Assembly (NCBI GenBank): GCA_009936825.1
Contig: JAACDV010000016.1
Coordinates: 1-5,713 of the forward strand
Length of the DNA stretch: 5,713 nt
Direction of reading: 5' to 3'
DNA from: Bacteroidota bacterium
Lineage (GTDB): Bacteria; Pseudomonadota; Alphaproteobacteria; Puniceispirillales; Puniceispirillaceae
Below are positions 1,424 through 5,713 of the stretch, one piece after another. The translations under genes and the position numbers were made by a program. Position 1 is the stretch's first letter. Every line of letters starts with the position of its first letter. Under the pieces are notes generated by a model. That model made no database searches. It saw only the letters and a program-made list of their open reading frames with translations, and was not told where the DNA came from.

Positions 1424-3019
1424 ATCGAAAAAGTCGTTGCCCTTGTCATCAGTGATGATAAAGGCCGGGAAATTTTCAACCTCAATTTTCCAGATGGCTT
1501 CCATACCAAGCTCGGGATATTCCAGAACCTTGATATTTTTGATCGATTCCAGCGCCAGCTTTGCTGCAACACCGCCAATGCTGCCAAGATAAAATCCGCC
1601 ATTCGCCTCGCAGCTATCACGAACCTGACGCGACCGGTTGCCTTTTGCCAGCATTACCATTGATCCGCCAGCGGCCTGAAATCTGGGGACATAGCTATCC
1701 ATCCGGCCAGCGGTCGTAGGCCCAAACGATCCGGATGCCATTCCGTCTGGCGTTTTAGCCGGTCCGGCATAATAGACAGGGTGATCCTTGAAATAATCTG
1801 GCAGGGTACCTTCGGCCTCCATCCGTTCCAGTAATTTGGCATGGGCAATGTCGCGCGCCACAATCAGCGGACCGGTTAATGACAGCCGCGTTTTGACCGG
1901 ATACTGGCTGAGGGAGTGCAAGATATCGGCCATTGGCTGGTTCAGGTCAATCGGCACGGCGGCGGCTTCATCCTCTTCAACTTCGGGAAGAAAACGCGCC
2001 GGATTACGCTCCAGCTTTTCGATAAAAATACCGTCAGGGGTGATTTTCGCCAGCGCCTGACGGTCAGCCGAACAGGAAACGCCAATGCCAATCGGACAGG
2101 AGGCACCGTGTCGAGGCAACCGGATAACGCGCACATCATGGCAGTAATATTTGCCGCCAAACTGCGCCCCAATGCCTAACTCGCGGGTGATTTGCAGAAT
2201 TTCTGCTTCCCAGTCAAGATCGCGCCAGGCATGGCCGATATCATTACCGGTTGTAGGCAGCCCATCCAGTGCGCGAATTGAGGCCTGTTTAACAGTTTTC
2301 AGATTATATTCGGCAGAGGTGCCGCCAATCCCAACAGCAAGATGGTAAGGCGGGCAGGCCGATGTTCCCAGATCCACGATTGCGGTCCGGATAAAGTCCC
2401 GCATGCCTTCGGGGTTCAGCACCGCTTTGGTTTTCTGGTGAAGGAAGGTTTTGTTGGCCGAACCGCCGCCTTTTTGCACGAAGGCAAATTTATATTCCAG
2501 ACCCTTGCCAGCATAAAGTTCAATCTGAGCTGGCAGGTTGGTGCCGGTGTTCACCTCTTCAAACATGCTGGTTGCGGCAAGTTGTGAATAGCGCAGGTTG
2601 CTGGTTTGATAAGTATCAAACACGCCGCGTGACAGGGCCATGCTGTCATCACCATCGATTAAGACCCTATCCCCGCGATAGCCGGCGATAATCGCCGTTC
2701 CCGTATCTTGGCACATTGGCAGCAGACCATCGGCGGCGATCACCGCGTTTTTCAGCATTTCCAGCGCGACAAAGCGATCATTGTGGCTGGCCTCGGGGTC
2801 TTTCAGAATATCGGCAAGCTGGCTAAGATGGCCGCTCCGAAGAAGATGCGATATGTCGGTAAAAGCTCGCGCCGCCAGAACTGTTAACGCCTCCGGGGCA
2901 ACTTTCAAAAATGTCTCGCCGCCAAGTTCAACCAGTTCGACATGGTCTTTTGAAACCAGCTCATACGGGGTGGTATCAGCAGATTGCGGGAACATCGGGC
3001 TATAGACAAAATCTGTCAT
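1415..3019 (-). CDS. fumA: Fumarate hydratase class I (iron-sulfur fumarase)
   Basis: This 534-residue enzyme catalyses reversible hydration of fumarate to L-malate in the TCA cycle and is cytosolic. It belongs to the oxygen-sensitive [4Fe-4S] class I family (E. coli FumA/FumB, about 548 residues), not the FumC superfamily. Candidate cluster ligands are Cys103 in [10 protein letters not shown], Cys222 in GTSACPPYH and Cys316 in GVSCSADR. Other family signatures are KGGGSANKT (183-191), [11 protein letters not shown] (230-240), and in the C-terminal domain [16 protein letters not shown] and [13 protein letters not shown]. The alpha (Fumerase) domain spans roughly residues 1-330 and the C-terminal beta domain the rest. 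The ATG at 3019 is chosen because the protein starts normally there; no clear Shine-Dalgarno precedes it. The start codon lies in a tandem duplication that also creates an out-of-frame ATG 17 bp upstream. The gene is convergent with glcF and lies 93 bp downstream of sspB on the same strand, so it may receive some sspB readthrough. The fumA symbol reflects the family, not a proven ortholog of one E. coli paralog. Confidence 0.95.
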
Positions 3020-3041
3020 AAGATAAAATCTGTCATATTAT
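3008..3041. repeat. 17-bp tandem duplication containing the fumarase start codon
   Basis: AAAATCTGTCATAAGAT (3008-3024) and AAAATCTGTCATATTAT (3025-3041) are adjacent and match at 15 of 17 positions, the first 13 identical. The left copy contains the real fumarase start (CAT at 3017-3019 on the plus strand). The right copy carries a duplicate of the first codons, ATG ACA GAT TTT, which is out of frame because the period is 17. Confidence 0.75.
3016..3036 (-). promoter_or_regulatory. Possible 6-codon upstream reading frame overlapping the fumarase start
   Basis: The duplicated start region on the minus strand reads ATG ACA GAT TTT ATC TTA TGA, encoding MTDFIL. Its stop TGA (3018-3016) overlaps the fumarase ATG (3019-3017) as ATGA. 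This is the geometry of translational coupling or termination-reinitiation. No strong ribosome binding site precedes either ATG, so translation of the short frame is only a possibility; it may be a passive result of the duplication. Confidence 0.25.
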
Positions 3042-3077: not shown

Positions 3078-3113
3078 ACAGCTGATCGTAACAGTACAGC
3101 TGATCGTAACAGT
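3078..3113. repeat. Perfect 18-bp tandem duplication at the sspB stop codon
   Basis: ACAGCTGATCGTAACAGT is repeated twice with no spacer (3078-3095 and 3096-3113) and no mismatch. The right copy ends on the last base of the sspB stop codon, so the array lies immediately downstream of the gene on the minus strand. Each unit holds the palindrome CAGCTG, so the two copies could also pair as a 6-bp stem with a 12-nt loop. No T-run follows, so this is not a typical intrinsic terminator. Confidence 0.9.
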
Positions 3114-3664
3114 TACGAGGGGGTCTTGCGAAAACTATCAAGCGAGACAACGTCAGCGGTCTCATTCTTACCGCGTGCGGCGTTCTTGCTGCCCCTCGCA
3201 GCAGTATCACCGGCGCGCGGGTTGGCGGCGTTCCGGCCCGTATTTCCGCCATCTACATTTCCGTCATCTGCATCATCGATATCATCTTCATCATCATCGG
3301 TCTCGAACTGCAAGCCAAAGCCAACTGACGGGTCGTTAAAGCTGGTCACGGCGGCAAAAGGCACGGTCATAGCCGATGGCTTTCCGCCAAAGAACAGGGT
3401 CACGCTAAATTCTTCGTCTTCAACAACAAGATCGGCATATTGGTGTTGTAGAACGATGGTGATGTTGTCGGGGTGGTTGGCGCGAAGATCATCCTCTATT
3501 TCAACCCCCGGATATCCGGTTTTGAAAGCAATATAGAAATGCGTATCGCCGGGCAGGCCGTCGCTCGCGGCAATATGAAGCGCCGAGCGCACAACCATTC
3601 GCAATGAAGCCTCGACAAGAAGTTCGTAATTCAGGCCGGTAACAATGTCGTTATGGTCAGTCAT
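3113..3664 (-). CDS. sspB: SspB-family ClpXP adaptor (alphaproteobacterial type)
   Basis: This 183-residue cytosolic protein is recognised as an SspB family member, the adaptor that binds ssrA-tagged polypeptides and delivers them to the ClpXP protease. The folded domain covers about residues 1-121, with family-like segments GLPGDTHFYIAFKTGYPGVEI (split around residues 37-56), HPDNITIVLQHQY (64-76) and FSVTLFFGGKP (86-96). A disordered linker follows. It begins with an acidic stretch, TDDDEDDIDDADD (122-134), and continues with Gly/Asn/Ala/Arg-rich sequence to about residue 170. The tail ADVVSLDSFRKTPS is set off from the linker and is the likely ClpX-docking motif, as in other SspB proteins. 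The start ATG at 3664 gives a normal N-terminus, but no strong Shine-Dalgarno is visible. The gene lies about 135 bp downstream of ssrA on the same strand, which supports the assignment and suggests a shared or coordinated output. Tag-binding specificity is inferred from the family. Confidence 0.88.
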   Translation of the reverse strand: MTDHNDIVTGLNYELLVEASLRMVVRSALHIAASDGLPGDTHFYIAFKTGYPGVEIEDDLRANHPDNITIVLQHQYADLVVEDEEFSVTLFFGGKPSAMTVPFAAVTSFNDPSVGFGLQFETDDDEDDIDDADDGNVDGGNTGRNAANPRAGDTAARGSKNAARGKNETADVVSLDSFRKTPS

Positions 3665-3688
3665 CCAGATCAGATCTCAGATACAGCG

Positions 3689-3714
3689 CCAAATTTAGAC
3701 TCCAAATTTAGACT
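3689..3714. repeat. Perfect 13-bp tandem duplication between ssrA and sspB
   Basis: CCAAATTTAGACT occurs at 3689-3701 and again at 3702-3714 with no mismatch or spacer. It lies 25 bp upstream of the sspB start on the minus strand, where a promoter or 5' leader would be. A weaker echo follows, with CTAGGTT at 3713-3719 and 3729-3735. The unit is AT-rich compared with its surroundings. Confidence 0.85.
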
Positions 3715-3798
3715 AGGTTCATTTTGCGCTAGGTTTGCTGTTCACTCTTTTTGCCTCGCATCCAGACTGCCTTTTGGACAAATCCGGTTTCGATACGG

Positions 3799-3832
3799 AA
3801 AAGTGGAGCGCTTCTGTTGCCAGGTGCGCTCC
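3799..3832 (-). terminator. Hairpin and short T-run at the ssrA 3' end
   Basis: On the minus strand GGAGCGC (3832-3826) and GCGCTCC (3811-3805) form a perfect 7-bp stem with a 14-nt loop. Then come A, C and four T residues (3802-3799). This probably marks the 3' end of the tmRNA coding piece, either as a weak intrinsic terminator or as a terminal structural helix. The short T-run leaves room for readthrough into sspB. Confidence 0.5.
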
Positions 3833-3892
3833 GGAACCCCGCCTACCCGAGCTCAATCGGACTGGACTTAAAATCGGTTACTCACGCTACCA

Positions 3893-3931
3893 TTAGGCTG
3901 CGATTGCGACCGGAGCAGTGTTGTCATTTGC
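3893..3931 (-). CDS. tmRNA proteolysis-tag reading frame
   Basis: The frame reads GCA AAT GAC AAC ACT GCT CCG GTC GCA ATC GCA GCC TAA and encodes ANDNTAPVAIAA. With the alanine carried by tmRNA, the added tag is AANDNTAPVAIAA. It has no start codon because translation resumes at GCA (3931-3929), preceded by GTAGTT, as in other tmRNAs where the resume codon follows a TAGT(C/T) context. The ANDN start is typical of alphaproteobacterial tags. The hydrophobic IAA end fits the ClpX degron class (usually LAA or VAA). A second in-frame stop, TAG, lies one codon after TAA. Confidence 0.93.
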   Translation of the reverse strand, partial: ANDNTAPVAIAA

Positions 3932-4016
3932 AACTACTACATGGCCCGATAACGGTGGGTACCATACCGAACGAAAATACTGCCTTTATTACATGCGTCG
4001 ATCCTATTTCGCCCCC

Positions 4017-4076
4017 AATCTTTCAGCTGCCCCTTCTTTATTAAGATCCTCCTATCAAGAGGATCAACAGCTGAAA
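4017..4076 (-). other. Excised spacer of the permuted pre-tmRNA
   Basis: This 60-nt segment lies between the encoded CCA (ending at 4077) and the first base of the coding piece (4016). Its ends are nearly closed by a perfect 9-bp inverted repeat, TTTCAGCTG at 4021-4029 with CAGCTGAAA at 4068-4076. Nested inside is a 7-bp hairpin, GATCCTC (4045-4051) with GAGGATC (4059-4065) around a 7-nt loop. The folded spacer continues from the acceptor stem and holds the two halves together until it is removed. Confidence 0.85.
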
Positions 4077-4157
4077 TGGTGGAGGCGCCGGGTACCGCCC
4101 CCGGGTCCGCTCTGCTTATTTCACAGCACGTTTATCGCCATAGCTGGCAAGCCAGCA
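4077..4157 (-). ncRNA. ssrA: tmRNA acceptor piece (3' half of the mature molecule)
   Basis: The minus strand ends in CCGGG-GGCGGTA-CCCGG-CGCCTCC-A-CCA. This is a 5-bp T-stem with a 7-nt loop, a 7-nt acceptor strand, the discriminator A and an encoded CCA at 4079-4077. The loop lacks the usual TTCGA sequence. Upstream, ACGTGC (4131-4126) can pair with the coding piece. Near the 5' end is the palindrome GCTGGCTTGCCAGC (4156-4143). The 5' boundary is estimated from the putative -10 box. Confidence 0.85.
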
Positions 4158-4162
4158 CCCTT

Positions 4163-4191
4163 AATATAGGCCGGTAGGCGCGCCTTTGGAA
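4163..4191 (-). promoter_or_regulatory. Putative ssrA promoter
   Basis: On the minus strand TATATT (4168-4163) resembles a sigma-70 -10 box and lies just upstream of the acceptor piece, giving a start near 4157. A weak -35 candidate, TTCCAA (4191-4186), lies 17 bp upstream of it. The -10 match is good and the -35 is poor. Confidence 0.4.
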
Positions 4192-4332
4192 GCGCTGTTT
4201 TGATGAACGGGATAAAAGACCGGTTTATTCTTTTTGATTGCGGCTTGATCCGGCCTCTCCAGCGTGCGATTTTTACCGCATTATCTCCCAGCCGTGATGT
4301 CCGGTTAATGCAGTAAAAAGAGGAGCCGCCCG
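4192..4332. promoter_or_regulatory. Divergent control region between ssrA and thyA
   Basis: This gene-free stretch must carry the thyA-folA promoter and upstream elements of ssrA. On the plus strand TTGATC (4245-4250) is a -35-like hexamer, but the hexamer 17 bp further on, GATTTT (4268-4273), is a poor -10 box. The only firm signal is the thyA ribosome binding site AGGAG at 4321-4325, preceded by an A-rich run. I saw no clear operator or riboswitch, and none of the short tandem duplications found at other gene boundaries. Confidence 0.35.
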
Positions 4333-5127
4333 ATGCGCCAATATCTTGATCTTCTGGCACATGTTCTAGATAAAGGGATTGATCGTGGTGATCGGACCGG
4401 AACGGGCACACGCGCGGTTTTCGGGACTCAGATGCGCTTTGATCTTGGCGAGGGGTTTCCTCTGTTAACCACCAAGAAGCTGCATACACGATCAATCTTT
4501 CATGAACTTTTATGGTTTATCAAAGGTGATACCAATATTCGTTATTTGCAGGAAAACGGCGTTTCGATCTGGGATGAGTGGGCCGATGACGAGGGTGATT
4601 TGGGCCCGGTATATGGCAAACAATGGCGCCGGTGGCAGGCCCCTGACGGACGTGAAATTGATCAACTGGCCGATCTTGTCTCGATGATCAAGAGTAATCC
4701 TGAATCGCGCCGGTTGATGTTGTCGGCATGGAATCCTGCCGATATCCCGAACATGGCGCTGCCGCCTTGTCATTGCCTGTTTCAGTTTTTCGTTGCCGAT
4801 GGGCGGCTGTCTTGCCAGCTGTATCAACGTAGTGCCGACATTTTTCTGGGTGTGCCGTTCAACATTGCTTCATACGCGCTGCTAACGCACATGATCGCGG
4901 CGGTGTGCGGGCTGAAAGCGGGTGATTTTGTTCATACGCTGGGTGATGCGCATCTTTATTCGAACCATTTTGATCAGGCGCGCCAGCCATTGACCCGCAT
5001 TCCCGGCGCTTTGCCAAAACTGCTGATACACCGCGTTCCAGATAGCATTGATGACTTCACTTATGATGATTTCGAAATTACCGAATATACGGCGCAGGCG
5101 CATATCGCCGCGCCAATAGCTGTTTAG
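4333..5127 (+). CDS. thyA: Thymidylate synthase ThyA
   Basis: This cytosolic enzyme methylates dUMP to dTMP using 5,10-methylenetetrahydrofolate, releasing dihydrofolate. Its 264 residues equal the E. coli ThyA length, and the key residues fall at the same numbers: Arg21, Arg126-Arg127, the nucleophile Cys146 in [10 protein letters not shown], Arg166-Ser167-Ala168-Asp169, Asn177, and His207/Tyr209 in DAHLYSNH. Trp80 lies in the SIWDEWAD segment. The C-terminus APIAV matches the closing tail of the family. The ATG is preceded by AGGAG at a 7-bp spacing, the best ribosome binding site in the window. folA starts 9 bp after the stop, so the two are almost certainly co-transcribed. The gene is divergent from ssrA. 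No truncation or altered catalytic residue was seen. Confidence 0.98.
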
Positions 5128-5679: not shown

Positions 5680-5683
5680 GCCG

Positions 5684-5713
5684 GTTGGTATCTGGGCCAG
5701 TTGGTATCTGGGC
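5684..5713. repeat. 16-bp tandem duplication just after folA
   Basis: GTTGGTATCTGGGC occurs at 5684-5697 and, perfectly, at 5700-5713 where the window ends, giving a 16-bp period with CA as the last two bases of the first unit. It starts 5 bp after the folA stop. More copies could follow outside the window. Confidence 0.8.

Follow-up and report, generated by a model that had tools for sequence, protein, structure and literature searches.

The window analysed here, a stretch of 5,713 nucleotides, carries on its minus strand an ssrA gene that encodes a circularly permuted, two-piece tmRNA and belongs, in all probability, to an alphaproteobacterium of SAR116 type. We put the probability of this reading at about 98%. 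A first-pass annotation had proposed such a gene in the gap between sspB and thyA and had named a covariance-model search as a check, a missing hit to count as refutation. The Rfam scan aligned RF01849 (alpha_tmRNA) to 4195-3802 minus, over model positions 1-355 of 355, with 275.2 bits and an E value of 4.3e-80, far above the gathering score of 50 and across the whole model. RF04321 (tmRNA_permuted, gathering score 47) matched 4139-3893 minus with 140.3 bits. Within a clan the scan retains the best overlapping match alone, and in this competition of related families no window match to the one-piece tmRNA model, RF00023, was reported.

Parts of the gene and its surroundings

All parts of a permuted tmRNA are present in the proposed place, together with the two flanking genes:

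3113..3664, minus strand: gene sspB for the adaptor of tagged proteins (PF04386), read in the same direction as ssrA and downstream of it; Pfam E 3.1e-40, above cut-off
3802..4016, minus strand: coding piece of the tmRNA, 3' end according to the Rfam match; RF01849 alignment
3893..3931, minus strand: tag reading frame GCA...GCC UAA, encoding ANDNTAPVAIAA and a stop; RF01849 alignment and base-by-base check
4010..4016, minus strand: 5' strand of the acceptor stem, GGGGGCG, where the coding piece begins; RF01849 alignment and pairing check
4017..4076, minus strand: intervening segment of 60 nt, predicted to be removed; fold z -5.25
4076-4066 with 4031-4021, minus strand: outer helix of the spacer; folding
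4065-4057 with 4053-4045, minus strand: inner helix of the spacer; folding
4077..4157, minus strand: acceptor piece of the tmRNA, CCA 3' end at 4079-4077, putative 5' end near 4157; RF01849 and RF04321 alignments
4080, minus strand: discriminator A; base-by-base check
4081..4087, minus strand: 3' strand of the acceptor stem, CGCCUCC, bearing the U of G3-U; RF01849 alignment and pairing check
4088..4104, minus strand: T arm with stem CCGGG/CCCGG and loop GGCGGUA; RF01849, recovered by folding
4163..4192, minus strand: promoter-like stretch of ssrA with CTTCCA (4192-4187), 18-nt spacing and TATATT (4168-4163); inside the RF01849 match, with a presumed promoter function
4333..5127, plus strand: thyA, the divergent neighbour; Pfam and NCBIfam above cut-offs

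The order of the parts is that of the alphaproteobacterial family, with the CCA-bearing acceptor piece first, then the spacer, then the tag-bearing coding piece. The acceptor stem joins both pieces by seven of seven base pairs, among them G3-U, as a base-by-base check of CGCCUCC (4087-4081) against GGGGGCG (4016-4010) confirmed, and the separation of its strands, given as 60 nt in the first-pass annotation, is exactly that (4076-4017). The tag frame is short, closed by a stop and ends in small hydrophobic residues (ANDNTAPVAIAA). The T loop GGCGGUA differs from the usual tRNA T loop and equals the RF01849 consensus. When 206 nt were folded without constraints, the acceptor stem, the T arm and the long-range helix of the tRNA-like domain were recovered (z -3.11), with 0 of 200 shuffles as stable. 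These parts, their pairing, the family match and the conservation are what the sequences show directly.

The RF01849 match reaches up to 4195 because the model includes an upstream promoter-like stretch, and a start of the tmRNA near 4157, as originally suggested, is plausible. Thirty of the 57 sequences compared share an upstream TATATT, and 28 of these 30 also have the CTT equally far from it; the 57 comprise 55 loci described below, the closest complete relative (L002) and the window, with one genome counted twice. A scan for E. coli-type promoters did not report the CTTCCA/TATATT stretch and found no such promoter near 4157, the sole promoter-like site in 3650-4340 being 4308-4280, a yield in keeping with chance (0.5 expected).

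That the gap instead holds a small protein gene, on one strand or the other, and matches the RNA model only incidentally is vanishingly improbable. Four ORFs of at least 60 aa (72, 97, 83 and 124 aa) overlap the gene, but none of the four matches a Pfam family, against an E value of 4.3e-80 for the RNA model; the gap had already been described as lacking a credible protein, and this description stands. By Pfam, the protein genes of the window encode an iron-sulfur protein, fumarase, SspB, ThyA and dihydrofolate reductase. Above the NCBIfam cut-offs the first is GlcF and the fourth thymidylate synthase, two NCBIfam subfamily models back a class I fumarase, and the dihydrofolate reductase stays under the NCBIfam cut-offs shown. 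The match of SspB to the NCBIfam adaptor model is weak, at 22 bits where the cut-off is 191. Short tandem duplications (two copies, 13-18 bp) lie in or at the edges of the intergenic gaps of the window (3004-3037, 3078-3113, 3689-3714, 5680-5713 and 1-28), and further repeats fall inside genes.

Relatives and gene order

The window SspB has three relatives at 59-62% identity, two of them in SAR116 MAGs and one in a MAG labelled only Alphaproteobacteria. In all three, ssrA lies beside sspB, complete in L002 and truncated where the contig stops in L001 and L003. The contigs of the latter two stop inside ssrA at base 1, and the conserved gene perhaps breaks metagenome assembly; such breaks would conceal the gene in MAG surveys.

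In the order of L002, the nearest complete relative, RF01849 scored above cut-off in 94 of 136 genomes and was without such a match in 42, and in an even draw of 289 genomes from the class of the same genome it did so in 263 and not in 26; in each genome no more than 10 (order) or 5 (class) candidates were scored, under strict filters. Broken assemblies explain some of the missing matches, since two genomes without a match in one search (G001 and G003) carry copies truncated at the contig end. The one-piece model RF00023 was above cut-off in none of the 136 order genomes. Weaker matches to it, the best ones mostly 76 nt long and by that length probably tRNAs, occur in 129 of the 136; because they also occur in all 14 control genomes, archaea included, only the RF00023 cut-off is informative.

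For comparison of loci we took the 30 best-scoring of the order (L004-L033, where L004 and L002 are one genome) and the best-scoring further 28 of the class (L034-L061), from which L043, L049 and L055, without anchor motifs, were dropped, leaving 25. Counts of loci hence describe high-scoring genes, not randomly drawn ones, and the selection itself makes the anchors conserved. In these anchor-picked loci the acceptor stem pairs seven of seven with G3-U in 30/30 of the order and 25/25 of the class (55/55). Pair 5 is altered on both sides in three of the 25 class loci, and the encoded CCA is replaced by CCT in one. A tag frame is present in every one of the 30 order loci, encoding ANDNTAPVAIAA in 15, ANDNTAPVAMAA in seven, ANDNYAPVAAAA in three, ANDNTAPVAAAA in two, and ANDNTAPVAVAA, ANDNTAPVVAAA and ANDNYAPVAVAA in one each. 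Among the class loci a motif search found the tag in 15 of 25 and ARAGORN in seven of the other ten; for L035, L053 and L056 neither motif nor ARAGORN found one.

At default settings ARAGORN made no tmRNA call in the window. The first-pass expectation that the gene is easily overlooked in annotation thus holds for this common finder in the loci of the order and fails for Rfam, which detects the gene immediately. The default score not attained could point to a decayed or inactive gene that retains the look of ssrA, but the match is full-length at 275 bits, the acceptor stem and the CCA are intact, as are the tag frame and its stop, and 30/30 order loci examined have these parts in this gene order. 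At the default threshold ARAGORN found 5 and missed 25 of the 30 order loci (19/25 class loci were found), which suggests that the tool falls short in this clade, and a pseudogene is highly improbable. A default run of ARAGORN accordingly overlooks 25 of 30 high-scoring loci of this order.

The gene order around ssrA is constant among the high-scoring order loci. In 30/30, sspB follows ssrA in the same direction at an estimated 24-118 nt past the RNA end, the SspB alignment covering only residues 1-65 in L022, and thyA stands divergent on the other flank in 30/30. The ssrA-sspB gap of the window is estimated at 136 nt; the duplication at 3689-3714, upstream of sspB, may partly account for the longer gap there. 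Within about 1.5 kb of flank, a codirectional sspB lies downstream in 14 of the 25 class loci and a divergent thyA in nine. The estimated gaps of the 14 are 20-225 nt in ten and about 800 nt in two (L034 and L035), and not measurable in the remaining two; in 11 of the 25, one of which (L050) lies at a contig end, sspB is absent from the ~1.5-kb flank. A scan for terminator-like sites found none in 3650-4340, which includes the ssrA-sspB gap (0.7 expected in shuffles). Judged from sequence, co-transcription of ssrA and sspB is plausible. Constant order of the two genes bears on how tagging and tag delivery couple. The linkage is not described in the titles or abstract openings searched, which does not establish it as unreported. 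Alphaproteobacterial SspB is reportedly the subject of a 2007 paper by Lessner, Venters and Keiler.

The same location bears on the question whether this ssrA could belong to a phage, a plasmid or an integrated island instead of the host. Two-piece tmRNA can occur in marine phages, according to passages of PMC9004378, and 32 nt of the acceptor end are exact in one Rhodobacter phage, but no phage record covers at least 80% of the gene, and the sspB-thyA location is that of the window and of 30/30 order loci examined, with housekeeping genes as the protein genes of the window. Eighteen plasmid records match, three of them across at least 80% of the gene; these three, however, are replicons of 1.57-4.6 Mb from other Alphaproteobacteria with 67-69% identity. 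We therefore regard a mobile-element copy as very improbable, and phage origin was rejected, as the two phage records found match just 12% and 8% of the gene. In this phage, RcRudolph, the exact copy of those 32 nt (3001-3032 of locus L062) lies within a gene labelled hypothetical. No integrase is annotated among the nine surrounding features, and a reading of this match as an attachment site was for this reason not adopted. The same 32 nt are also exact in four Methylobacterium plasmids.

The intervening segment

In the window, acceptor stem and spacer together fold with -46.1 kcal/mol (z -5.25), and 0 of 200 shuffles are as stable. The spacer ends pair into a nine-pair helix in the window and in 14 of the 30 order loci. 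The only criteria of selection were spacer length and the left arm, and 134 of the 135 cells of the helix are standard pairs. Pairs 2, 4, 8 and 9 show two-sided changes among these 15 sequences, which are related, their kinship being uncorrected. A helix common to the whole order was considered and rejected, the outer helix being missing in 16 of the 30 loci. Four of these 16 (L018, L028, L030 and L033) have spacers of just 8-9 nt; that of the window measures 60 nt and others reach 78 nt, a nearly tenfold variation inside one order. Other end-to-end spacer helices occur in several class loci, and the RF01849 model handles the spacer as an unpaired insert. The helix likely holds both pieces together until processing, and it bears on how the permuted precursor gets cut.

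Taking spacer and gene order together, we tentatively propose, at somewhat less than even odds, that in this order of Alphaproteobacteria a single transcript covers ssrA and sspB, whereby tagging RNA and tag adaptor would be made together, and that in part of the order the precursor spacer may have been selected for a helix that stacks on the acceptor stem and guides processing.

Proposed pathway and known systems

Transcription, cleavage, charging, tagging and degradation are proposed here by analogy with the known family. A single precursor would be transcribed leftwards from near 4157, and its intervening segment would fold back on itself and stack on the acceptor stem. The enzymes of tRNA processing are expected to excise the spacer, RNase P cutting at 4016 and a 3' nuclease acting at the CCA end, 4077, and the products would be the acceptor piece and the coding piece, joined by base pairs. 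Alanyl-tRNA synthetase would charge this tmRNA via the G3-U pair, and the charged tmRNA with SmpB would enter stalled ribosomes and append (A)ANDNTAPVAIAA. The product of the next gene downstream, SspB, would then pass the tagged protein to ClpXP. In Caulobacter the route from SsrA via SspB to ClpXP has been described (PMC8119881, in part), and the function of the two-piece tmRNA of this organism is credited to Keiler et al. 2000, as cited in passages of PMC3985003.

The permuted arrangement is already well known in Alphaproteobacteria, as the first-pass annotation had stated and as passages of PMC11915505, PMC9004378, PMC3985003 and PMC2704228 bear out. The first of these counts the permuted form among the three major forms of tmRNA genes, with 11,946 unique permuted sequences, and PMC3985003 and PMC9004378 treat two-piece tmRNA in Alphaproteobacteria. 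The window gene is hence a correct but ordinary case, one further alphaproteobacterial two-piece tmRNA, by which little is gained beyond annotation. In a literature search on SAR116 and tmRNA, neither word stood in the titles or abstracts found.

With the RF01849 family, for example Caulobacter ssrA, the window gene shares the order of the pieces, the acceptor stem, the GGCGGUA T loop, the G3-U pair and the ANDN start of the tag. It differs in a tag that ends in IAA and in its intervening segment, which is 60 nt long and contains a strong helix, whereas the RF01849 model leaves this segment as an unpaired insert. The tmRNA of Pelagibacter (SAR11) is similar in being split, permuted, hard to identify and adjoined by a thymidylate synthase gene, but passages of PMC2704228 give its flanks as thyX and COG4696, where the window has thyA and sspB. 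Cyanobacterial (RF01851) and betaproteobacterial (RF01850) permuted tmRNAs show the same kind of permutation, and RF04321 is a merged model that takes them in (PMC11915505, in part). Among the clade models the alphaproteobacterial one alone was reported for the window, the best overlapping match of the clan being kept.
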